A DNA stretch of 50,837 nt from a bacterium (GCA_029932675.1 JAOZPP010000015.1:1-50837); one strand, 5' to 3'. Shown: positions 1 through 18,210, counted from the first letter of the stretch. The notes: generated from the sequence alone by a model not told the origin. Translations and numbers: made by a program.

Positions 1-994
1 TTTCAAAGAACACATCCAAGGCCAATTTTGCCCCTTTGACTGTCAAACTTGGGCTCCAAGGAACTTCGGCCAGCACAACTGTATCTATATCTCCAATGTC
101 AACACCAATCTCAAGTGTCATAGTAGCAACGCAAACCCCACACTGAGTTTCCTTCATAAAACTCTCCGCTTCCTCACGAACTTGTTTACTTAAACTTCCA
201 TGATGAACAACGACTTTATCGTTACCCCACAATTTCATGCATTCTTTTGCAATATTTTCTACATTAGCTCTCTTATTACAGAAGATCAACAGTTTCCTTA
301 GTCTTTCTTCTCTTGCATAATTAAAGACCTCTTTAAGTGATCTAACAAGTGTATATTTAATTTCTCGTTTCCCAGGTGTCATAATAACTTCGAAGTCCTT
401 CAAATACCTGCCTCCAACATCTTCGGGATCAGCTATAGTAGCAGATAGAGCATAGATATTAAAATCAGTCTCTGCAAGGTGTTCTAATCTCCTCAAGAGT
501 ATTCGGAGTTGATCTCCCCGATAAGTATTATCAAGGAGATGGATCTCATCTAACACCACTGCTTTTATATTCTTGAAACTTAAAGGATATCTGCAGATTA
601 ACGAATCCAAAGACTCAGGAGTTATTATTAAAAAACTTGGAGGTTTGTGTGAATTAAATTGTGGTTTATCCCCAGTTCTTAATGACAATGAGATATCGAG
701 TTCGTCTAGTTGTTCTTTTAATCGATGATACATATCGTTTACTAACGCTCTAGTTGGAGAAACGTAGGGTATTGCCAAATCTATCCAGTTTTCTCCAAGA
801 CATCTCTCTACTAATGGCGCAACTACTGCCTCTGTTTTTCCGCTTGCCGTAGATGATACAATAATGGCGTTTCTTCCTTCTAAAACTATTGGGATTGTTT
901 TTAATTGAATTTGTCGGAGTTTCCCATATCTACCAAAAAATGTTACCCACGTTCGCTTCAGTTTCTTTTTCAATTCTAATTGATTTCTAATCAC
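1..994 (-). CDS. Lhr-like superfamily 2 DNA helicase, 3' end outside window
   Basis: Partial gene; 331 codons are visible and the frame runs off the window start. Start is GTG at 994, overlapping the previous gene's TGA by 4 bases (GTGA), so translation is probably coupled. Visible motifs: a Q-like RQIQ near residue 28, motif I ASGKT (50-54), PTRAL (80-84), TPES (125-128), DEIH box (149-152), SAT (184-186) and motif V TLEIGVDIG (293-301). This pattern fits ATP-driven Lhr/BrxHI-type helicases. Motif VI (Q-R-x-G-R) is not recognisable after motif V, where the frame reads SPSLTVKGAK. That could be divergence, or a frameshift just before the window edge. Its position at the end of an operon with two BrxD-like ATPases matches BREX- and Ter-type clusters, in which DUF2791 ATPases accompany a helicase. 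Family assignment is good; the biological role is inferred. Confidence 0.85.
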   Translation of the reverse strand, partial: MIRNQLELKKKLKRTWVTFFGRYGKLRQIQLKTIPIVLEGRNAIIVSSTASGKTEAVVAPLVERCLGENWIDLAIPYVSPTRALVNDMYHRLKEQLDELDISLSLRTGDKPQFNSHKPPSFLIITPESLDSLICRYPLSFKNIKAVVLDEIHLLDNTYRGDQLRILLRRLEHLAETDFNIYALSATIADPEDVGGRYLKDFEVIMTPGKREIKYTLVRSLKEVFNYAREERLRKLLIFCNKRANVENIAKECMKLWGNDKVVVHHGSLSKQVREEAESFMKETQCGVCVATMTLEIGVDIGDIDTVVLAEVPWSPSLTVKGAKLALDVFFE

Positions 995-2298
995 TTTAAC
1001 AGTTCCTCTATTGATTTATCAGAATGAAAACGCATAAGATCAAGGAGATCTATTATGCTTTTTATAAACATTCGAGTTTTATCTTTAGGTATCAAATCAT
1101 TAAAATAATTCGAATTCACATTTGCTTGGAAATCATATGCCCTTTGGTAGAGCTTGATAATATTACTCGAGATTTCTATTAAAGACCTCTCATCGAGATT
1201 TTCTAACTCAAAATTTTCTAGACTATTCAACGGCTCCTTATTTAGAACCCACGATGGAGCAAATGCAAAGACAATCTTAACATTGCACGGGATTTTCCAA
1301 ATAAATGATAACTGTTTATACCCACAATATTGGAGATCAGTATAATCACCCCACCACCCTTTGTATATTGGGTGCTCATAAAATTTCCCTTCTCGAACCT
1401 CTTTTAACAATAGCTCGTCATTATTAGCCATTAAAATAAGTCCTCTCAAAAAATTCCATGCTTTATTGTTTTGATATGATGAATACCAGTAATGATCAAC
1501 GCTCTCCGCTTCATCGAGCAATATTAAAAAACCATTCATCCCAAGTATATTTTTTACTGCCCAGCCTACGCCACTTAATAGATAACAATATATATTTGCA
1601 CAGGTAGAGTATTCATACATAGGTGGATAATAATACCAACTAGGCTTTCCCTCAATCCATTCCCAGGTATATTCACCATCAGTTCCATTTCTTATTTTTT
1701 CAACAGCTCTACCAAGATATTCATGACTGTTTGACTCATAAAAATACGCACTGCTTGCTATCTGTCTCAGAAATGCTCTAAAATCACCGTTTCGATGTCT
1801 AAATCTGAATGAGGAAATTATTTTTTCATAAATCACCTTAGGTTTATGAAAAGGTGCTTCATTAGGATCAAGTTCAATTATTGAAACAGCCCAATTATTA
1901 TTTAAAGCGAATGAATAAATATATTCTAAAAGGTGAGTTTTTCCTACACCGTATTCTCCGAGCATCGCCAAAACACCATCATTTTGATTATCCAGCCAAC
2001 TCTTAATTTGCTTTATTTCCTCTCCTCGTCCAAATGTAAATTTTTCCACATATTTATGGGGTACAACGCCTAATCTTAAAGCTTCTATAATTTGTCTTGC
2101 TTTGAATTGCTCTTTTGTGAGCACAGGCTCTAAAAGTCCATGCTTTGACAAAATAGGGGTTTCAGATAAAAATCTAACTTCGTCTCTTCTTACCCATCTG
2201 GTAATTTCATCTTCAAATTCTACGTATAGCTCAAATCCACTAAATCTTTTTTTTAGTATTTTCCCCTTTCCATAAGTTCTATGTTCTACTAATTGCAC
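991..2298 (-). CDS. BrxD/DUF2791-like P-loop ATPase with N-terminal SH3-like domain
   Basis: 435 residues. Residues 8-45 (YGKGKI, then VEFEDEITRWVRRDEV) resemble a small SH3/Tudor-type barrel like those at the N-termini of RapA-type enzymes. A P-loop ATPase follows: Walker A GEYGVGKT (114-121), a conserved-looking APFHK patch (148-152) shared with the next ATPase upstream, and Walker B FLILLDEAE (257-265). The rest is helical with many aromatic residues. The pattern fits the ATP-binding proteins of BREX type 2 (BrxD) and the DUF2791 ATPases described beside Ter-domain proteins and SF2 helicases. It probably uses ATP on or near DNA together with its neighbours. The previous gene ends 14 bases upstream and the helicase overlaps its stop. 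No PglZ or PglX partner is visible, so calling it complete BREX is not justified. Confidence 0.82.
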   Translation of the reverse strand: MQLVEHRTYGKGKILKKRFSGFELYVEFEDEITRWVRRDEVRFLSETPILSKHGLLEPVLTKEQFKARQIIEALRLGVVPHKYVEKFTFGRGEEIKQIKSWLDNQNDGVLAMLGEYGVGKTHLLEYIYSFALNNNWAVSIIELDPNEAPFHKPKVIYEKIISSFRFRHRNGDFRAFLRQIASSAYFYESNSHEYLGRAVEKIRNGTDGEYTWEWIEGKPSWYYYPPMYEYSTCANIYCYLLSGVGWAVKNILGMNGFLILLDEAESVDHYWYSSYQNNKAWNFLRGLILMANNDELLLKEVREGKFYEHPIYKGWWGDYTDLQYCGYKQLSFIWKIPCNVKIVFAFAPSWVLNKEPLNSLENFELENLDERSLIEISSNIIKLYQRAYDFQANVNSNYFNDLIPKDKTRMFIKSIIDLLDLMRFHSDKSIEELLK

Positions 2299-2312
2299 GT
2301 CACATCCCCTAT

Positions 2313-3560
2313 CTACATACCAATATCTTCTGATGTAACAGATTTACCAGTTTTACGTAATTTATGGAACGCTTTAATTATATTCTGAACAAATAGCCTT
2401 TTATAGCCGATTTCCAGTTTTCTTTCATAGGCAGCTTTCGCAATATTTTTTATTGTTTTTTCAAGTGTATCATTTTCAAATTTCACATTATAGGATATTT
2501 TATAAATTGTAGCCAATTTTTCGCCAATTTCCTCTAAAAGTTCAACTGGCTCTGTTGGTATATTCTCAAGATATATTTTAACCCCAGTAGGGTTTATTTC
2601 TGTATCAAAAACTGTTGATACTCTCTGACGTAAAGCTTCATAAATTTGTGCTCGTCCTTCAAAAAAATTCTCATCTGGCACTGCATAGAACCATATAGTA
2701 TTTTTGAAATTAGCATGTCCACATTCGTCTATCAGCTCTCTTAAATTATTCAAAAGGAGACCCTTTTGTGGGGAAGACATGCTTGGTGTTTGTTCGGCCT
2801 CATCCATAAGTCCAATAAGTCCGGCATATCCTATTTCTCTTACCCATTGAACAAGGGAACGAATCATTTTAAAGGCTGTGCTTTTATCAATCTTTTCAAA
2901 AATCTTAAAGCCCTTCAGCATATTTTTGAGTGGGTTCTCACCCTTTAACCACTGCATTATTAACGTAAAATCTTCCTCACGTTTTTCAGCTAAAGCTATA
3001 AACGCCTCCTTTACAGCATTTCTAAAACTTATGCTTTCATAAGGACCCATAGAAGAAGCATATGTATTGAGTTCTCTTAGTACGGTGTCTCCAGTTAGCT
3101 TTGCAGAAAGTTCTTGGTATTTCTCATTGTACCACTTCTTTATAACAGCCTCTATACCCCTATCATATCCTGATAAAAGCTCCTCAGGTGTTTGAGAGTA
3201 TATGAGATTTGCAACTATCGCCTTATAGACTTGCTCTAATTTATGGAATGGCGTTTGTTCAGGACTCAAGGTAATATAAGATGTAATGTAGTCATATTCC
3301 CATGCCAATTCCCTAATACAGTACAAAAAATGAGTTTTCCCCCCACCATATATACCAATTATCATTTTAAATGCTGAACCACCATCTCTTATGAAACTTT
3401 TAAGGTACTCCTCATCTATTGTATCGAGATAGACACCTAATCCTGCTGTGAAATACTGGAATCCATATTCTGGGGGATTTCCCTGCCCTCCAACTATCTC
3501 AATAATTTTTCTTGCGGTATTAGAATCTAACTTTTTATTCTGAATTCTATTCACATTCAT
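2313..3560 (-). CDS. BrxD/DUF2791-like P-loop ATPase
   Basis: 415 residues with ATG start; it overlaps the upstream gene by 4 bases. Walker A is GIYGGGKT (69-76), followed by an HFLY helix. The TPFHK patch (103-107) matches APFHK in the adjacent ATPase, and Walker B is GLIGLMDEAEQ (247-257). The GIYGGGKTHFLY-type P-loop is characteristic of the BREX ATP-binding (BrxD/DUF2791) family, and the length agrees with BrxD. Two related ATPases of similar length side by side suggest a hetero-oligomeric machine. The sequence is rich in lysine, isoleucine and AT-ending codons, unlike the GC-richer genes after 4652, which supports horizontal acquisition. A role in phage or plasmid defence is inferred from family and context. 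Confidence 0.85.
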   Translation of the reverse strand: MNVNRIQNKKLDSNTARKIIEIVGGQGNPPEYGFQYFTAGLGVYLDTIDEEYLKSFIRDGGSAFKMIIGIYGGGKTHFLYCIRELAWEYDYITSYITLSPEQTPFHKLEQVYKAIVANLIYSQTPEELLSGYDRGIEAVIKKWYNEKYQELSAKLTGDTVLRELNTYASSMGPYESISFRNAVKEAFIALAEKREEDFTLIMQWLKGENPLKNMLKGFKIFEKIDKSTAFKMIRSLVQWVREIGYAGLIGLMDEAEQTPSMSSPQKGLLLNNLRELIDECGHANFKNTIWFYAVPDENFFEGRAQIYEALRQRVSTVFDTEINPTGVKIYLENIPTEPVELLEEIGEKLATIYKISYNVKFENDTLEKTIKNIAKAAYERKLEIGYKRLFVQNIIKAFHKLRKTGKSVTSEDIGM

Positions 3561-4411
3561 GATATCGCCTCCCTAAATTTAATATGAGATATATAATTAC
3601 CATCACCCTTTTCACCAGAGGGAATCCAGAGAAAATCCGATTTTCGTCTAGTATATGCTCGTGTTGCAGTAATTAGACTCAGTTCTTTACCATCGAATTT
3701 TCTTTCTTTTAATCTGTGAAGATCATAACTAAAGAAAACACGACCATATTCCCTGTAGTTATCTTTTATGGGATTTGTTCTAAATTTTTTATCCTGATTC
3801 AGAAATGCAAATTCAAAAAGAATGTTCGAAATAGCAATTTGATCACCCATTTTTTTATTCTGGCGATAAACAGCAATTTTATATGCCTCATACAACTTTG
3901 ATAGAAACATCTCATCGTTAAATTGCCACTGTGTGATTTTGGCGTGAACAATTTTCAGCTTTTTAACCACCTCTTCTGGGTTTAGTTCACATATCCCTAA
4001 TTTCTCCTGCTGGGGGCCATACCATATTAAAACTCTAAAGCTGTCTAAATCCACTTCAAGGGTATAGAAGGATACCTTAAGCAAAGGGTAGTGTCCTCTT
4101 AATTCGAAACCCAGTTTTTCCATTTCATTTTCTAACTTCTGCCCGAAAGTTTTCTTTACATCTTCCTCCCATCTAGGAATCTTTGATTTTATACTCTCCA
4201 AATGTCGCTCGATTTCTTCCTTTACGAAATCATCTAATTTGCTCCGTTTCAATGCTTTTTCAATTTTGATCATCTCTTGTTTTATTTTATACAAATTGTT
4301 TAAGGGAGTGTGACGCAACTTCCCAACATCCCTAAAGGTTTTTAATAAATTTTGTAAGTTGACTTTTTCATCTGAAATCAATTTTGTAATTTTTCTCTCA
4401 TTTTCTTTCAT
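3557..4411 (-). CDS. Uncharacterised coiled-coil protein, first gene of ATPase/helicase operon
   Basis: 284 residues; I do not recognise a named family. Residues 1-110 are strongly charged with heptad-like leucine spacing, suggesting a coiled coil. The remainder (from about FELRGHYPLLKV, 121) is mixed alpha/beta with hydrophobic strands. There is no signal peptide, membrane segment or obvious catalytic motif. Start ATG at 4411 is preceded by GAGGTGG, a good ribosome-binding site. It overlaps the BrxD-like ATPase by 4 bases, so it is probably an obligate partner. By position it could be the sensor, adaptor or DNA-binding subunit, but nothing in the sequence settles this. An attC-like hairpin lies about 55 bases upstream. 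Confidence 0.75.
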   Translation of the reverse strand: MKENERKITKLISDEKVNLQNLLKTFRDVGKLRHTPLNNLYKIKQEMIKIEKALKRSKLDDFVKEEIERHLESIKSKIPRWEEDVKKTFGQKLENEMEKLGFELRGHYPLLKVSFYTLEVDLDSFRVLIWYGPQQEKLGICELNPEEVVKKLKIVHAKITQWQFNDEMFLSKLYEAYKIAVYRQNKKMGDQIAISNILFEFAFLNQDKKFRTNPIKDNYREYGRVFFSYDLHRLKERKFDGKELSLITATRAYTRRKSDFLWIPSGEKGDGNYISHIKFREAIS

Positions 4412-4466
4412 ATTGCTGCCACCTCAATTAATACACTCATGTTTTCAGGTTTAAAGTCACCGTTTC

Positions 4467-4532
4467 GCCTAACGGGCGGCAGATAAGCGAAGTTGGGAGG
4501 GCGAAAGCGGAATCGCTTACCTGTTCATAGGC
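4467..4532. repeat. attC-like imperfect hairpin upstream of the AT-rich operon
   Basis: The element begins with GCCTAAC (4467-4473), matching the integron core site RYYYAAC. An 11-bp arm CAGATAAGCGA (4480-4490) pairs with TCGCTTACCTG (4513-4523) with one mismatch. The far end reads GTT-CAT-AGGC, which is the partner core GTTAGGC with three extra bases. Read on the minus strand, the GTTAGGC core is followed within about 60 bases by the 3557-4411 gene, as a cassette would be. The rest of 4412-4651 holds no gene I can support. Alternative: an unrelated mobile hairpin. Confidence 0.4.
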
Positions 4533-4651
4533 AAAGTGACGCTAGCCACCACTTTAGCGTGATAGCTTATACGAACTCTGAAACTCGGTTACACCTCGGC
4601 TTCACGGTATGCAAATACCATTCTGCTATCTAATCCTGTTTCATTCCAACC

Positions 4652-6718
4652 CTACCCCTTCTGCCTCCCTAAGAGGACCTCTATGGCCAGGATGCCCAGG
4701 ACCAGCCAAAGGGCTGTCCGCCAGAGTTCCCTCCCATACCTTGCCTTTCGCACCTCCTCCTCCAGGTCTGCCTTCCAGGGGATGAAGAAGGTCTCCCCTC
4801 CCCTGATCAGTTCCTTTACTTCCTTGGGCTTTAGCTGGGAGGGATCTGATTCCCTGGGGTCGGGGTTGACCGAAAAGATCCCTATCTCCCTTTCATCGGC
4901 GAAGAGTCTCCATATTCCCTTTTCGGCAGGTTCAGGGATGCGGATGAGGAAGTTTGCCCCTCGGAGGAGAGGCTTTAGGGCCATCTTCTCCCCATTAGGG
5001 CGCAGGCAGGTTATCTTTCCCTCTCTCCTCTTGAGGGAGATCTCTACTGGATTGCCTATAATGTTCTCCTTAGATAATTGAAAACTGCCTGCGGCCAAAT
5101 ACCTCACCACCCTCTGGAGAAAGGGGACGATGAACCCTGATCGGGGAAGCTCCGACCAACCGAGGTCAAGTGCTGAAGTGAAGACTATAACCCTCCCTCT
5201 CCCCAACCTTCCCTCCACCAGAGCAGGGAGACCATTGGAGAACCAGGCCAACCCTTGGCTCCCCTTCTTTATCTCCCCTTGATAGGCTAAGTAGGAGGAG
5301 GGAAAGCTGATCTTCTTTCCCTGAAATATGCTGAATATGGGATGGGAATAGTTAAGCTTCTCCAAGGAGAAATAGATATCCTTCTGGTGGGGAATACCCA
5401 CCAGCGGACCCAAGGTCACGGGGGAAATCTCGCTGAAAGGCCCTTGATTGAAGAAACGAGGATCTATCCCCTCTCCCAAGGAGATGAACAACCCTCCCCC
5501 TTCTCGCAAAAACTCCTTGATTGCCGCCACCCGATCGGGGTTGAGGTTGCCCACATTGGCTAAGGCCACCACATCGAAGTCGGAGAGAAGGAACCCGGAG
5601 AGCTCTCCCGCCTCACAGGGAGTTGGCTCCACCGAGAACTTCCCCTCCTGCAGAGGATTCAGGGCTAACTGAAGATAGAAGATATCCTCCCTCATCCCCC
5701 CTACACAGAGGACCTTGATCCTCTCCGGGATGGTGAAGTTGAAGTACCTCCTATTGTCTCCCTTCAGTTCGTCATCGGGTAGTTGGACCCATCCCCAATG
5801 GCTTCCTCCCCCCTCTGGGGTTAGATCGAACTTTATCTGCCCTTCGCCACCGGCCTTGAGGTCGATGTTCTTCTGATCCATCCTTTTCCCATCCAAGAAA
5901 AGCTCCGCGGTCAGGTTGACAAAGGGAGAGGAAGAATTGTTCTTCACTACGGCAACCAGTTCCAGTGGTTTCCCCTCCTCCATTATCCCCCCCCCAACCA
6001 GGTTGAGGGATTTGATCAGTGCATTTCTGGGCTTGGTCTGCTCTGGATAGATGAGATACAACCTTACCCCGGAGGGGATCTCCAAGCCCCTGGCAAAGAG
6101 CTTCCCCCATCCATACCTGCGCAGATCGGTGATTAGGTAGATCTCCCGGTTGAGATTTTGGGAGCGGGAGAGGATGGAGATTGCCTCATTGAGTGCTTCC
6201 TTGAGATCTGTTCCCCCATCGGAGAGTTCGAGCCTTGTTAGCCCCTTTCTCACCAAAGAGAGATTATGAGTAGGGGAAGGAAGAAGAGGGTGGGGATGGT
6301 CGGAGAAGCTGATTAGATCAGCCTCATCTCCCTCCTTAAGCATTCCAAGGACGGTCTCCCCCTTGGCCTTTGCCTCGCGGAAGAGTCCGCCAGCTCCCAT
6401 GCTCAAGGAGTTGTCCACCAGGATTACCGCCGATATCTTAGCGTGTGCTCCCACCAGCCCGGAGAGTACCCCCTTCAGTGCTGGGCGGGCGAAGGCCAGG
6501 GCTAAGAGGAGAAGGGCTAAGGTTCTCAGGATAAGGAGAATTATCTGCCTTATCCGCACCCTTTTCATCCTCGTCTTCTGCAGAAGCCTAAGATACCTCA
6601 GGGTGCTGAAGTAGACCTTCCTTACCTTTTCCCGGTTTAGGAGATGAATGAGAAGGGGGAGAACGGCCACAGATAGGGCGAAGAGGAAGGCCGTGTTCAG
6701 GAAGGTGAGATTAAACAT
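4652..6718 (-). CDS. BatA-like membrane protein with von Willebrand A domain
   Basis: 688 residues. The N-terminal BatA (aerotolerance regulator) domain has two membrane helices (about 5-28 and 57-80) flanking the typical HLLNREK and KVRKVYFSTLRYL segments. A VWA domain follows with a MIDAS-like motif DNSLSMG (about 102-108). The middle is a CARDB/Ig-like stretch, then a class I glutamine-amidotransferase-like fold (from about VLCVGG, 336). A C-terminal helix (ALWLVLGILAIEVLL) anchors it again. Members of this group sit in the inner membrane beside MoxR and DUF58 proteins and are thought to help assemble or mature envelope or redox complexes. It follows the DUF58 gene by 6 bases and is the last gene of the unit. 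Confidence 0.85.
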   Translation of the reverse strand: MFNLTFLNTAFLFALSVAVLPLLIHLLNREKVRKVYFSTLRYLRLLQKTRMKRVRIRQIILLILRTLALLLLALAFARPALKGVLSGLVGAHAKISAVILVDNSLSMGAGGLFREAKAKGETVLGMLKEGDEADLISFSDHPHPLLPSPTHNLSLVRKGLTRLELSDGGTDLKEALNEAISILSRSQNLNREIYLITDLRRYGWGKLFARGLEIPSGVRLYLIYPEQTKPRNALIKSLNLVGGGIMEEGKPLELVAVVKNNSSSPFVNLTAELFLDGKRMDQKNIDLKAGGEGQIKFDLTPEGGGSHWGWVQLPDDELKGDNRRYFNFTIPERIKVLCVGGMREDIFYLQLALNPLQEGKFSVEPTPCEAGELSGFLLSDFDVVALANVGNLNPDRVAAIKEFLREGGGLFISLGEGIDPRFFNQGPFSEISPVTLGPLVGIPHQKDIYFSLEKLNYSHPIFSIFQGKKISFPSSYLAYQGEIKKGSQGLAWFSNGLPALVEGRLGRGRVIVFTSALDLGWSELPRSGFIVPFLQRVVRYLAAGSFQLSKENIIGNPVEISLKRREGKITCLRPNGEKMALKPLLRGANFLIRIPEPAEKGIWRLFADEREIGIFSVNPDPRESDPSQLKPKEVKELIRGGETFFIPWKADLEEEVRKARYGRELWRTALWLVLGILAIEVLLGRQKG

Positions 6719-6724
6719 CGGCTC

Positions 6725-7621
6725 TTAAAAGAGGTGTTTCCTCTTCTGTAGGTAGGCAAAGAGGGCATAATCCAGCGGCACCGAGGTGTCCATAGCCACA
6801 TACTCTATCTTGCCCTCCCCACACTTGGCCTTATAGAGCTGAACCAGGTCTCTGATCTGCTCCTGATAATTCTTCCTTATCTGCCAAGGTTGGGTGAGGA
6901 TCTCCTCTCCGGTCTCCATATCCACAAATATGGCCTCCCTCTGATAGGTGAAGCTCTTCTCCATGGGATCCAGGATGTGGAAGACTATAACCTCATTTTT
7001 TTTATATCTGAAATGCTTTAGGCCCATAAGGATATCTTCCGGCTCAGAGAAGAGATCGGAGATGATCACCACCAACCCCCTCCTCCTTATCCTCTCCGCC
7101 AACTGATGAAAGGTGGAGCTCACCTGAGTGGTATGGGATGGCTTCAGTTTCACCAACTCCTTCAAAAGATCATGCAGATGGCTTCTGGCCGAGCGGGGAG
7201 GGAGGTAGCTGCGCATCCCCTCATCGAAGATGGCCAAGCCCACAGCATCCTTCTGTTTGAGCATCAGGTAGCCGAGGGCTGCCGCCAGGTAGGAGCCATA
7301 TTCTAACTTCGTTATGCCGTTTGATCTATAGCCCATAGAGGCACTGGCATCTAAGAGGATATAGGCCTTAAGGTTTGTCTCCTCCTCATATTCCTTGATG
7401 TAGTAGCGGTCGGTTTTGGCATATACCTTCCAGTCGATGTCCCTGATGGGATCGCCAGGCATATACTGGCGATGCTCGGCAAACTCCACGGAGAAGCCAT
7501 GGTAAGGGCTGCGGTGCAGACCAATGAGAAAGCCCTCTACCACAAACCTGGCCTTCATCTCCATCTTAGAGAGCTGGGAGAGAAACTGGGGGGAAAGAAA
7601 TTTACGGTAGTCCTGAGCCAT
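6725..7621 (-). CDS. DUF58 protein (VWA-like)
   Basis: 298 residues. The DUF58 signature is clear: the GDPIRDIDWKVYAKT block around residues 76-90, followed by a VWA-like core with LLDASASMGY (about 108-117). There is no membrane segment, so it is probably cytosolic and peripheral. It sits between moxR and the BatA-like gene in the classic MoxR-DUF58-VWA arrangement, with its ATG overlapping the MoxR stop by one base (TAATG). The family is thought to act with the MoxR ATPase as a metal-dependent chaperone-like complex. Exact substrates are unknown. Confidence 0.9.
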   Translation of the reverse strand: MAQDYRKFLSPQFLSQLSKMEMKARFVVEGFLIGLHRSPYHGFSVEFAEHRQYMPGDPIRDIDWKVYAKTDRYYIKEYEEETNLKAYILLDASASMGYRSNGITKLEYGSYLAAALGYLMLKQKDAVGLAIFDEGMRSYLPPRSARSHLHDLLKELVKLKPSHTTQVSSTFHQLAERIRRRGLVVIISDLFSEPEDILMGLKHFRYKKNEVIVFHILDPMEKSFTYQREAIFVDMETGEEILTQPWQIRKNYQEQIRDLVQLYKAKCGEGKIEYVAMDTSVPLDYALFAYLQKRKHLF

Positions 7622-13735: not shown

Positions 13736-15474
13736 GATCGTTCTCCGAGAAGACGACAATAGATATGGTTACACAAACCCAAGGGGGAGAAATAATACAC
13801 AAAGAGAGGAAATTGACGAGGATAATCTTGACAGGGTTGTTGATGGCCGGACTTGTCGGTTGTGCTCCTGTGCAGAAAGAAAAGGGATTTAGGGAAGTAG
13901 CTGGTAGGGTAGAGAGGGTTCCAGAAAAAATGGTTTCTATCACCGTGGACCCCCGAATGGAATTACTGGCTATAGTTCAGCACTTCACTTCCTGGGCTCA
14001 AAAGGGGCATATAAAAAGCAAGACTGCATACAAGGATGATGTCGACCATTATTTTGGAAGGTTCAAAGATCATCCAGTCGTAGCCTATTTCGAAAATCTG
14101 ATTAACTCCAATTTTGCTTACGATGCGCCAGTTCAGTTCATGCTCTACCATAACGATCCCCCAGCGCTTGTGCAAAAAGCTCCATACTCGGACTACTTGA
14201 TTAAAAGAGCAGGGGGTGAGGATAACCTGACGGAATTCGCTAATGAACTAAGAAGTTTTGCTCGCAGGACAAACTTCATGCGGTTCTATCAGGCCCATAA
14301 GCCCCTGTATGACACCTTAATTGCGGAGGTGGACTCATTATTTGATGGGCAAAACTACGTTCAGACCCTTGAAGATTTTTATGGTGAATCGCAGAACAGC
14401 TATAATCTCCTCCTCTCGCCCCTATTTTCAGGGAACTATGGGATACCAATAAAGAGCGGAGCAGGGTATGATCTCTATGCTGTAATCGGCTCCTGTTCAC
14501 TCCGGGGGAAGCGCACCACCTTTGCCTGTCTCAATTACCTTGAAAGTATAACCCTACACGAATGGAGCCATCCTTTTGTAAACCCCCTGATAGACCAAAA
14601 CTATGCACTCTTTGAAAAATCTATTGCTTTGTTTGAACCTATCAAAAGGATGATGCAAAGACAAGCTTATCCCAATTGGAGGGTTACCCTCTATGAGCAC
14701 TTAGTACGTGCTTGTGGCGAGGTTCATCTGCGAGCTAAGCTCCACAAAGATTTCAATAAAAGGAAAGCCTTGGAATACCAGGAAGGAAAGGGGTTCTGGT
14801 ACATCAGCTATATGGACAGTCTGCTCTCCGTTTATGAAACCCATCGAAAGCAATATCCGACCTTCAGCCAATTTGTGCCAATTATCGCTGATAGACTCAG
14901 CCAAATTTCCGTTGCAGATCTACCAGAGAGGATAACCACCTTTAGAGGTCCCTTAGATGCCATCTTCTCTCGCACCGATTGTATCCATCTCATATATCCA
15001 ACTGCTATTGATGAAGAGTCAATCAACGAGGTTAAAAAAGATCTGGAAAACTTTGCCAGATTTCTTTCTTCTGCCCGCATAGAACCTGTGCTTATGAGCG
15101 ATAAAGAGGCTTTGGAGACCGATTGGCAAGATAAAGTTGGCTTTATCTTCGGCAATCCCAGGAGTAACTTGTTCCTTGGGCGACTGGAAATCGGAATTCC
15201 CTTGAGGTTTCGTGATAATGCAATAGAATTTGGAGGGAAAAGATATGAAGGGAGAGGGATACTCTTAATCTCCTGTATGCCGAACCCATTCAATAGGAAG
15301 CTTCCTTTTACTTTATGCATTGCCAACAGGCCGGAAGACCTGATTGGAGCCGGTTCAAGAATTAGAGGCCCCAGTGAGTGGTACGTAGATTATATCATTT
15401 TTCGCAGTGATGAAAAATTAGATGCGGGGTTGTATCATAAAGAGAAAGGCAAATGGTCCCTAACTCCTCAATAA
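13732..15474 (+). CDS. DUF4932-like HExxH lipoprotein (putative metalloprotease)
   Basis: The open frame starts with GTG at 13732 (580 residues). A better start may be TTG at 13813, which follows GAGAGG and gives a compact lipoprotein signal, with LVGC as the lipobox. A zinc-binding motif HEWSH lies at 276-280 (numbering from the GTG), and a downstream glutamate in RACGEVHLRAKL could be the third ligand. This agrees with the DUF4932 family, predicted metal-dependent peptidases. The C-terminal 200 residues have an alpha/beta layout without recognisable motifs. It overlaps the preceding DUF4097 gene by 4 bases if GTG is used. Substrate unknown. Confidence 0.8.
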   Translation: MRSFSEKTTIDMVTQTQGGEIIHKERKLTRIILTGLLMAGLVGCAPVQKEKGFREVAGRVERVPEKMVSITVDPRMELLAIVQHFTSWAQKGHIKSKTAYKDDVDHYFGRFKDHPVVAYFENLINSNFAYDAPVQFMLYHNDPPALVQKAPYSDYLIKRAGGEDNLTEFANELRSFARRTNFMRFYQAHKPLYDTLIAEVDSLFDGQNYVQTLEDFYGESQNSYNLLLSPLFSGNYGIPIKSGAGYDLYAVIGSCSLRGKRTTFACLNYLESITLHEWSHPFVNPLIDQNYALFEKSIALFEPIKRMMQRQAYPNWRVTLYEHLVRACGEVHLRAKLHKDFNKRKALEYQEGKGFWYISYMDSLLSVYETHRKQYPTFSQFVPIIADRLSQISVADLPERITTFRGPLDAIFSRTDCIHLIYPTAIDEESINEVKKDLENFARFLSSARIEPVLMSDKEALETDWQDKVGFIFGNPRSNLFLGRLEIGIPLRFRDNAIEFGGKRYEGRGILLISCMPNPFNRKLPFTLCIANRPEDLIGAGSRIRGPSEWYVDYIIFRSDEKLDAGLYHKEKGKWSLTPQ

Positions 15475-15672
15475 GATCGAGGGAGGGTCAAACACTCATT
15501 AGGATTTTTGGCCCACATCTAAATTGTGGCCATACAAAGACCTACTGTAAAATGGATCCACAGACCTTACTTTGAAAAAAGATGGGCCGTAAATCAATTA
15601 CTTACGCAACCTAAAAATAGTGAACGAGGATTTTTTACCCTTTTCCCGGCTACCAGACATTAAAAAGGGGAA

Positions 15673-16836
15673 ATGATGAGAGGCAAAATAATTAAAGGAA
15701 GATATTGGCTATTTTTACTTTTCCTTACTCCTCTAACTGCTCTTGGCCAAGGCTCTAATCCGCAGGACTCTACCTCAGATACAACCCTGGGCAGGGCAAC
15801 TGAGGTTCATATCGGAAGCGAAGGGATAACCATTGTCAGGGGGGGGAGGGGAAAAGCCTCCACTCGCATCTATCTTGACCGGGATAAGCTCTCCAAATTG
15901 GGTTCTCTCCAATCCCCTGAATCCGAGGGGGGCGGTATCGTCAAATTTGGTGAGGATATCACTATCGAGGAAGGCGAAGTGGTAAACGGGGATGTGGTGG
16001 CCATAGGGGGAAATATTCGGATCGCGGGCACAGTAGTGGGGGATGTATCTGCAGTAGGGGGAGATGTGATAGCTGAGTCCACCGCGGTAATCAGGGGGGA
16101 TGCAGTGAGCGTAGGGGGAAAGGTAGTGAAGGAACCCGGAGCGCAGATTAGGGGGTCCCGGATAGGGACCCACTTTCCTCCAAAGTTCCTTTTCCGTTGG
16201 GGCACTAAGGGTTGGTACCCTCCCCATCCCTATCACCCTCGCCTCTCCCCAGGGGCTGGATTTACCTTCGTTCTCTTCTTCGTCTTCCTCTCCCTCTCCC
16301 TTTTGATCACCCTCTTTCTCCCCACGCACATCCAAAGGATAAATGCTGCCATAGAAAGGGGATTTTTGAAGGCTGGCTTAGTTGGTTTCTTAGTAGATAT
16401 CCTCATCCTGCCGGTCTTCGTTATGCTCCTTATCACAGTTATCGGCATTCCAGTAGCCCTTTTGGTAGAACCAATTGTGCTTTTTGTAGCTATGGTCTTA
16501 GGGTTCGCAGGGATTAGCCTCTTCTTAGGTGAGAAGGTAAATCAAACCACCAGCTTAACCCTCTCCTCCCCTTTAGCCAAAGTATTGGTGGGCGGTGTAA
16601 TTATAGAACTCCTCCCCTTCTTGGCGGTCCTGTTTGGGATAGGGGGGGAGATATTCTCTCCGTTCTCCTGGGTTTTGAACATCGTCGGTTGGTTAACCCT
16701 TTACATTGGGTGGACGGTGGGATTCGGCGCGGTCTTCCTCACCAGATTTGGTTCCAGGACTCCAGCGCCCCCTGAGGTTCCCAGGGCACAGCCCCCCAAA
16801 CCCCCAGAAGAGGTTAAGGAGCCACCCAAGGATTAG
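15673..16836 (+). CDS. Bactofilin-like polymer-forming domain joined to membrane domain
   Basis: 387 residues with a signal peptide (WLFLLFLTPLTALGQG). Residues about 95-165 form short hexapeptide-like turns (GEVVNGDVVAIGGNIRIAG and related), typical of the bactofilin beta-helix. A proline-rich linker is followed by four membrane helices (about 200-345) and a proline-rich tail (PPKPPEEVKEPPKD). The polymer-forming part would lie outside the cytoplasm, unlike classical cytosolic bactofilins. Two ATGs in a row after AAGGGG leave a one-residue start ambiguity. It is probably an envelope scaffold; role inferred. Confidence 0.85.
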   Translation: MMRGKIIKGRYWLFLLFLTPLTALGQGSNPQDSTSDTTLGRATEVHIGSEGITIVRGGRGKASTRIYLDRDKLSKLGSLQSPESEGGGIVKFGEDITIEEGEVVNGDVVAIGGNIRIAGTVVGDVSAVGGDVIAESTAVIRGDAVSVGGKVVKEPGAQIRGSRIGTHFPPKFLFRWGTKGWYPPHPYHPRLSPGAGFTFVLFFVFLSLSLLITLFLPTHIQRINAAIERGFLKAGLVGFLVDILILPVFVMLLITVIGIPVALLVEPIVLFVAMVLGFAGISLFLGEKVNQTTSLTLSSPLAKVLVGGVIIELLPFLAVLFGIGGEIFSPFSWVLNIVGWLTLYIGWTVGFGAVFLTRFGSRTPAPPEVPRAQPPKPPEEVKEPPKD

Positions 16837-17136
16837 GAGGAAATCCTCAGCCCAACCGGACCAGCTCCCAAGATTCGTCTTTTATGGCTGTGCGCTCATA
16901 TTCCCTGATCTGGATGGAGCAGAGAAGGGACCGCGTGATATTACCGCTTCTCTCTTGATGAACAAGATCTTAAAATTTGGGTCCAACTTGTTGCCCGTAA
17001 TTATCTCACCTTGACGGCTTGAGGCGAAGTTCCGCTAATGATAATGGGAGAACGAGGGAATGAGGGACCATTGACCAATGGCTATGAAGGGGCCTGCGAG
17101 ATGAAGCTATAGAAAAGAACCACCAAGGGGGAAATT
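16837..17136. other. Intergenic region, nothing recognised
   Basis: Exactly 300 bases between two plus-strand genes. The short frames inside lack family resemblance, and no consensus promoter spacing or terminator was found. A ribosome-binding site (AAGGGGGAAA) for the next gene lies at the right end. Confidence 0.4.
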
Positions 17137-18210
17137 ATGAGAAAATGCACGTTATATCTCTTCATATCTTTGTTACTTCCCTGCCAATTAGCATATTCTC
17201 AAGGAACAACGCCAAAGCACCGCAGCCTAAACCTAACCATAAAGGGTTATGGAATAAGCCTGGGCAATTCGCCAGGGGTAAACGGACTGAGGGTTAACCT
17301 CGTCGACCATGGATTGAAACAAGTTAATGGCCTCAACTTCACCCTTTGGAAGCCGAAGGAGAATAAGGGTGCCGTGATCAATGGCCTGGCCATCGGCTTA
17401 GTTGCCCCGGAGGCCGAGAGGATAAATGGGGTTTCAATCGGTTGCCTTGGTGTTATCGGGCTTACAAGCTTAAATGGCTTAAACATAGGGGGGTTAGCTG
17501 CTGTCTCCAATGGGCAGGTGAGGGGGATCACCTTGGCAGGCCTGGGATTAGTAGGCCAAAAGGAGATCCTCGGGGTAAACATCGCCGGTTTAGGCACTGT
17601 CTCTGAAGGAGAGGTGAGGGGGCTAAACATAGGGGGGCTCGGCTTAGTGGGGGAGAAGGGGATTGTGGGGATAAACCTAGGTGGGTTGGGCGTTGTTTCG
17701 GAAGGAGAAGTAAGAGGGGTTACGGTAAGCGGTCTGGGAATAGTTGGCCGTGGTGGACTTAAAGGCATAAGCATCGCTGGGTTGGGTGCTGTCTCTGAAG
17801 ACGAGGTAAAAGGAGCTACTTTCGCCGGTTTAGGCGTCGTAGGGCAGAGGATAAGGGGGATAGCCCTCACGGCAGGTGAAATCAGGGCTACGGAGAGGGT
17901 GGAGGGGTTAGCCCTGGGAGCTTATCGGGTAAAGGCCAAAGCCATAAGGGGGATTGCCCTAACCTGTTTAATGACAACTTTTGAATCCTCGCAGGGTTTG
18001 ATCATCGGTCCCTATCTAAAGTCGCAATCCCTGAAGGGGCTTTCTATAGCGGCCCTTAACTCCATCAGCCGCCACCAAGTGGGCATCACCATCGGCCTGA
18101 TTAACTATGCCCAACAGCTAAAGGGGATCCAGATTGGGTTGTTCAACTATGCCGGAAATAACCCCAAATACCTAAAGATATTGCCCCTTGTCAATGCCCA
18201 CCTTGGATAA
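17137..18210 (+). CDS. Exported repeat protein, LA_2272 surface-repeat type
   Basis: 357 residues with a signal peptide ending near QLAYSQG. The body is built from 16-residue units of the type G-(V/I)-(N/T)-(I/L)-x-GLG-x-V-x-x-x-x-x-x, best seen at about 127-242. Units alternate between VG(Q/E)K-like and VSEGEVR-like halves, giving a 32-residue super-repeat. This resembles LA_2272-family surface-repeat proteins. A beta-solenoid is likely. It lies between the bactofilin-like and second DUF4097 genes, in keeping with a surface role; biochemical function is unknown. Confidence 0.8.
   Translation: MRKCTLYLFISLLLPCQLAYSQGTTPKHRSLNLTIKGYGISLGNSPGVNGLRVNLVDHGLKQVNGLNFTLWKPKENKGAVINGLAIGLVAPEAERINGVSIGCLGVIGLTSLNGLNIGGLAAVSNGQVRGITLAGLGLVGQKEILGVNIAGLGTVSEGEVRGLNIGGLGLVGEKGIVGINLGGLGVVSEGEVRGVTVSGLGIVGRGGLKGISIAGLGAVSEDEVKGATFAGLGVVGQRIRGIALTAGEIRATERVEGLALGAYRVKAKAIRGIALTCLMTTFESSQGLIIGPYLKSQSLKGLSIAALNSISRHQVGITIGLINYAQQLKGIQIGLFNYAGNNPKYLKILPLVNAHLG

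Follow-up and report, generated by a model that had tools for sequence, protein, structure and literature searches.

A four-gene cassette at the end of a contig

The window, by which we mean the whole stretch of 50,837 nucleotides analysed here, is the complete contig C59 of a 3.03 Mb genome assembled in 116 contigs, and its position 1 is a contig end. Four open reading frames, termed A, B, D and H, follow each other head to tail in this order on the minus strand at its left end. The features of this region are listed below.

3557-4411, minus strand: A, 284 aa, with an N-terminal helical coiled-coil (about residues 1-100) and a conserved C-terminal part
2313-3560, minus strand: B, first BrxD-like ATPase, 415 aa; Pfam BrxC_BrxD 4e-45 over 389 residues; PADLOC BrxD 2e-38 and SngB 1e-21
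3333-3356, minus strand: Walker A motif (P-loop) of B, GIYGGGKT
991-2298, minus strand: D, second BrxD-like ATPase, 435 aa; Pfam BrxC_BrxD 4e-22
1936-1959, minus strand: Walker A motif (P-loop) of D, GEYGVGKT, read as GEYGVGKTH; the Walker B motif of D is LLDEAE
2170-2298, minus strand: residues 1-43 of D, predicted small beta-barrel of five strands (AF2 strands)
2-994, minus strand: H open reading frame, 331 aa, open at the window edge; the helicase part proper is 54-994
54-994, minus strand: H, 5' part of an SF2 (Lhr/BrxHI/SngC-like) helicase, ending before motif VI; DEAD 9e-33, Helicase_C 3e-14
1-53, strand not assigned: end of a dispersed repeat (probable insertion-sequence end, IS1634-like by eye), which cuts the H frame and is also the contig end

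An earlier note on this DNA had described four minus-strand genes with 4-base overlaps at two of the three junctions, and the ORF coordinates confirm this: A and B overlap by 4 bases (3557-3560), B and D are separated by a 14-base gap and D and H again overlap by 4 bases (991-994). It had also reported two P-loop ATPases sharing a (T/A)PFHK patch. The TPFHK and APFHK patches are present in the window's two ATPases and their relation proved far wider, the B and D profiles being homologous over 330 columns (hhalign E 2e-41), and BrxC_BrxD is matched by each of the 16 proteins in the D alignment. NCBIfam BrxD scores were 131 and 68 bits against a cut-off of 350, and a homologous ATPase-helicase pair is present. 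Judged by their sequences, B and D are ancient paralogues of BrxD. The description of the last gene as an Lhr-like helicase likewise held, H carrying DEAD and Helicase_C domains with BrxHI (8e-57) and SngC (2e-56) as its best PADLOC models; it is 74% identical over 316 columns to a complete 527-aa relative in locus L011.

Protein A gave no significant match in Pfam, PADLOC, NCBIfam, PHROGs or PDB sequences, and its assignment to a known fold was rejected, as family and PDB-sequence matches all lay within noise. Its AF2 model (helices at residues 3-31, 36-56 and 61-99; mean pLDDT 53.7) was built from two sequences and is too poor for a fold search; the structure predictions drew on sequences of the window and of L011. 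The connection to Ter systems suggested in the earlier note was not borne out: Pfam detected no TerB domain in A or its relatives, and A gave no profile match to SngA, the TerB protein of Shango. For D, the AF2 model is unreliable (whole-model mean pLDDT 39.5) outside the N-terminal strands at residues 3-6, 10-18, 23-28, 33-37 and 41-43, where pLDDT is about 75. PcrA_UvrD_tudor was weakly matched (0.023) by 1 of 16 D members. This predicted N-terminal barrel may be Tudor/SH3-like and might dock on nucleic acid or on another protein.

Conservation of gene content and order

Searching 386 genomes with five A proteins returned 14 matches, of which one (G093) was taken to be false; 400 genomes around G204, searched next, gave 26 matches, one of them only a short fragment. 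The false match (L048) was rejected as a member of the module, neither B nor D adjoining it. With A and its relatives as queries, 44 loci were gathered. Plasmid searches added loci from Aulosira laxa (L051) and from Desulfomonile tiedjei pDESTI.01 (L053), and in the latter, whose four genes are intact (NC_018026, 10215-15641), the NCBI annotation of B as well as of D reads 'BREX system ATP-binding domain'. The window's A as a query gave no plasmid match, full-length plasmid relatives having been reached through the D query and through proteins of the relatives. The queries used brought up no relatives from phage records or from IMG/VR.

At all 43 loci of the 44-locus table that leave room for it, the gene after A on its strand is B, and D follows B at 39 of 40, the exception (L129) looking decayed. 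Further along, this table has an H-type helicase in 22 loci and an SNF2-type helicase in 7, to which L096, whose A lies off the contig, is to be added; these counts are not independent, many loci of the second set being related to one another. About ten loci carry A-B-D with no recognised helicase adjoining. Pairwise distances among the A, B, D and H proteins co-vary (Mantel r 0.84-0.95, with 0 of 5000 permutations as high), as would be expected if the genes were inherited as a unit. Co-occurrence of the four genes in other genomes, on which the earlier note had staked its proposal, is thus strongly upheld by the 44-locus table, and we conclude that they form a real conserved module, which is shared by many distantly related bacteria.

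Two further genes were observed beside A-B-D. A type II DNA methylase lies directly after it at L046:7443-8870, in a locus without a helicase, and a possible protein of 1820 aa, with no PADLOC match, is encoded immediately upstream of A at L038:12134-17596.

A sister subtype and exchange of the helicase

Seven loci (L098, L136, L137, L139, L140, L145 and L150) show the arrangement A, B lacking a P-loop, D with a P-loop, a further gene E and an SNF2 helicase, the contig of L150 ending after E. The A proteins of this sister subtype were recognised by a profile built without them (E 2e-15 to 8e-8). The SNF2 protein carries an Mrr restriction-nuclease domain at its C-terminus in L096 and L139; the H subtype, which is the commonest, has no nuclease. 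Further exchanges and fusions were found: L097 encodes a B-D fusion of 768 aa with an SNF2 helicase and without E, H and an SF1 helicase are joined in one protein in L044, and in L144 an XPB-like helicase occupies the helicase slot.

The B P-loop is present in 21 of 22 H-type cassettes and in 0 of 8 SNF2-type cassettes, while almost every D protein, in either subtype, retains its own. A Fisher test of the B P-loop against helicase type gave p of about 2e-6, computed with 20/21 instead of 21/22, and this value reflects one evolutionary loss of the B P-loop, not independent events.

E, a protein of about 170-200 aa, is encoded between D and the SNF2 helicase at L098:6287-6826, L096:1678-2247, L136:6961-7533 and their relatives. 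It gave no Pfam match in the three proteins tested and no PADLOC match in the two tested. A and E represent new conserved protein families.

Phylogenetic position of the ATPases and the helicase

In a tree with BrxD and SngB, 17 D proteins formed one clade (81/96) and BrxD and SngB grouped together (94/88); a quick tree covering both subtypes placed 26 D proteins in one group (SH-aLRT 97). For B, a single group was not recovered. Fourteen H proteins formed one clade (100/99) apart from BrxHI, SngC and Lhr, and SngB and SngC each formed fully supported clades of their own. Since D and H form separate clades, the two-ATPase set is an old lineage and does not derive from a recent duplication within BREX. 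The description 'minimal BREX' proposed earlier therefore had to be abandoned: with an ATPase pair and a helicase clade of its own, the module represents a separate old line of descent and not a stripped BREX.

Interruption of the window copy and its horizontal origin

Bases 1-53 of the window recur in the same genome at the ends of contigs C43, C38, C36 and C4 and inside C39. The internal copy in C39 adjoins a transposase-like remnant (L006:914-1279), the designation 'IS1634-like' being a reading of its ORF by eye. The frame of H leaves all its relatives exactly at the repeat boundary, after ...EVPWS, where the relatives go on into motif VI. Using the C-terminal part of the closest relative's helicase as query, the missing 3' end of H was found nowhere else in the assembly, the search returning only the paralogue. 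An insertion sequence has probably interrupted H in the window, and this break probably leaves the window copy inactive. The same insertion-sequence end, probably IS1634-like, breaks the assembly in several places (window 1-53, C43, C38, C36, C4 and C39).

A second, complete A-B-D-H cassette is present in the same genome, on contig C108 (L019:7129-12548). Its A, B and D are about 30-48% identical to those of the window, for which the closest relative is found in a Candidatus Cloacimonadota metagenome-assembled genome (L011), with 65-78% identity. The G+C content of the window cassette is 34.8% against 51% around it, all other segments of the same length on the contig having at least 47.2%. This low G+C content, together with the resemblance to Cloacimonadota as against the unlike C108 copy, points to a recent horizontal arrival.

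Defence and mobile neighbourhood

Defence neighbours were noted by inspection only. The cassette of L149 (7751-13255) is bracketed by a DUF499 ATPase (4070-7117) and a DUF1156 methylase (14420-17380); L147 is laid out alike, with an SNF2 protein coming next, and a decayed DUF499 gene is found in L148. DUF499 ATPase, DUF1156 methylase and SNF2 protein are components of Type-1 BREX-Related systems (PMC12839542). On the cyanobacterial plasmid of L051, the cassette abuts BREX-2 genes that include a BrxD and a BrxHI distinct from B, D and H. On the Desulfomonile plasmid pDESTI.01 it lies near AbiE, and AbiEii is found nearby in L097. A CRISPR-like array, with about 25 copies of a repeat of about 37 bases at a spacing of 63-67 bases, was seen at L098:12353-13988, a few kb from the A-B-D-E-SNF2 cassette.

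The cassettes of the window, L019 and L039 have ordinary, housekeeping neighbours, and Lhr-type helicases include DNA-repair enzymes. Such observations would suit a DNA repair or replication-stress module, made of an ORC-like loader and an Lhr-type helicase, that is merely mobile and has no part in defence. We regard this as unlikely, however, in view of the patchy distribution, the transfer seen in low G+C content, the two unlike copies within one genome and the carriage on plasmids, to which the fusion of SNF2 to an Mrr restriction nuclease and the nesting in DUF499-type systems are to be added.

The genes might instead serve the replication or maintenance of an integrated mobile element, as initiator-like ATPases and a helicase that are selfish and not host-protective; plasmid copies exist and BrxD-like proteins are ORC/Cdc6-type ATPases (PMC12839542). 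In the stretches inspected, however, the chromosomal copies had no recognisable integrase or relaxase gene next to them, and pDESTI.01 has its own ParA. To our knowledge, moreover, neither Lhr nor SNF2 enzymes serve as replicative helicases, and we consider this origin very improbable.

A probable anti-invader module

The explanation that we prefer to repair or element replication, and consider fairly probable, is that of a conserved module directed against invaders and spread by horizontal transfer, in which A-B-D would load or activate a DNA translocase at foreign DNA. BrxD is an ORC/Cdc6 AAA+ ATPase proposed to load or activate BrxHI (PMC12839542), and the same logic fits A-B-D with an exchangeable translocase. 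The paralogous ORC/Cdc6-type, BrxD-like ATPases B and D would form, together with the coiled-coil protein A, an assembly recognising or clamping foreign DNA. This putative assembly would load or activate the translocase, namely H, or SNF2 and SNF2-Mrr in the sister subtype, and the translocase would then block or destroy the invader. D may be the catalytic ATPase or motor, and B a regulatory partner able to lose ATP binding. The defensive role, the formation of a complex, the loading of the helicase and DNA as the target are thus all proposed here as parts of one model.

With a confidence only slightly better than even, we further suggest that these loci represent a new class of defence systems, found in a few percent of the sampled genomes. 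A heteromeric pair of ORC/Cdc6-like ATPases, one of which would be a pseudo-ATPase in the sister subtype, and a coiled-coil adaptor would provide a common loading platform for swapped translocases or nucleases (Lhr-like, SF1 fusion, SNF2, SNF2-Mrr, XPB-like). No mechanism is established for the BrxD-BrxHI and SngB-SngC pairs, and the module shows such a pair with neither the TerB protein nor the remainder of BREX. Its duplicated ATPase and exchangeable translocase, in a set of four genes, make the idea that an ATPase loads a helicase on invader DNA directly testable. The Pfam, NCBIfam and PADLOC 2.0.0 profile libraries do not recognise this family as a system.

Comparison with known systems

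Somewhat as in BREX type 2, an ATPase related to BrxD directly precedes an Lhr/Ski2-like SF2 helicase, likely as loader and motor (PMC12839542). Unlike BREX type 2, the module has two paralogous ATPases instead of one, ATPase and helicase clades of its own and the new protein A, and it is without PglZ, PglX, PglW and BrxC. Neither PglZ nor PglX/BrxX was found beside the window cassette, where the sequence beyond the contig end is unreadable, or as a member in the other inspected cassettes. The earlier note's picture of two distinct BrxD-like ATPases and an unknown coiled-coil protein lacking any PglZ, PglX or TerB partner is supported in this respect. PglZ matches in the genome lie on other contigs, in a response-regulator-like gene on C75 and in a BREX-like locus on C21. 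This latter locus (G000:C21, L151:3-13241) is separate from the cassette and unlinked to it, and carries genes for a possible BrxC-like ATPase, a nucleotidyltransferase, a DNA methylase, PglZ, a BrxL-like ATPase and, after these, a possible nuclease, all named by eye except PglZ, which has a Pfam match.

Shango, consisting of the TerB protein SngA, the ATPase SngB and the helicase SngC, resembles the module as a compact operon with the same order and an unlike first protein. A is a third of the size of SngA, however, and has no TerB_N, TerB or TerB_C; two ATPases stand in place of a single one of SngB type, and the helicase belongs to another clade. TerB_N gave no match in a search of the genome in which the controls also gave no signal, and which therefore says little about the genome as a whole.

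These likenesses raise the alternative of a diverged relative of Shango or BREX type 2 whose sensor or effector (TerB protein, or PglZ/PglX/PglW) would work in trans from another site in the genome. B does match the BrxD and SngB models and H those of BrxHI and SngC, C21 holds PglZ, a methylase and a BrxL-like ATPase, and the L051 cassette abuts BREX-2. The D and H clades nevertheless exclude BrxD/SngB and BrxHI/SngC, C21 is another contig, the BREX-2 of L051 possesses its own ATPase and helicase, and TerB, PglZ and PglX are not members of any inspected cassette in other genomes, so that we judge action in trans to be distinctly unlikely.

With the Type-1 BREX-Related (DUF499) systems (PMC12839542), the anti-invader module that we propose shares a logic of ATPase, translocase and nuclease, and at L147 and L149 it lies within loci of this type. 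It differs in its ATPase family and in having no methylase of its own, and at other loci it occurs by itself. The window cassette contains no DUF499 ATPase, methylase or Swi2/Snf2 helicase, and the DUF499 and DUF1156 genes of L147 and L149 flank the cassette without being members of it. Among the models, those of Zorya ZorD and Dpd DpdE fit the SNF2(-Mrr) protein of the sister subtype best; unlike in Zorya or Dpd, it is preceded by A-B-D and E (about 190 aa), and no Zorya motor or Dpd genes were noted nearby.

Other candidates were set aside. In the passages located on the YprA-helicase systems ARMADA, BRIGADE and TALON (PMC12458937) no BrxD-like ATPase is mentioned, and the components of the BRC and Type-3 BR systems (PMC12839542) differ. 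L050 was rejected as a two-ATPase relative, its 451-aa protein having no ATPase match. This locus of a Deinococcus psychrotolerans plasmid (L050:5011-12425) encodes an LRR-like protein, the 451-aa protein, a BrxD-like ATPase and a helicase, with a second BrxD-like/helicase pair just downstream, and may be another variant of an ATPase-helicase pair.

No four-gene system of this kind is described in the literature searched, which left out most subscription papers and preprints, so that a description may exist elsewhere. By its membership as read from sequence, the cassette belongs to neither BREX type 2 nor Shango, and it is probably a variant of the known ATPase-helicase kind of defence.
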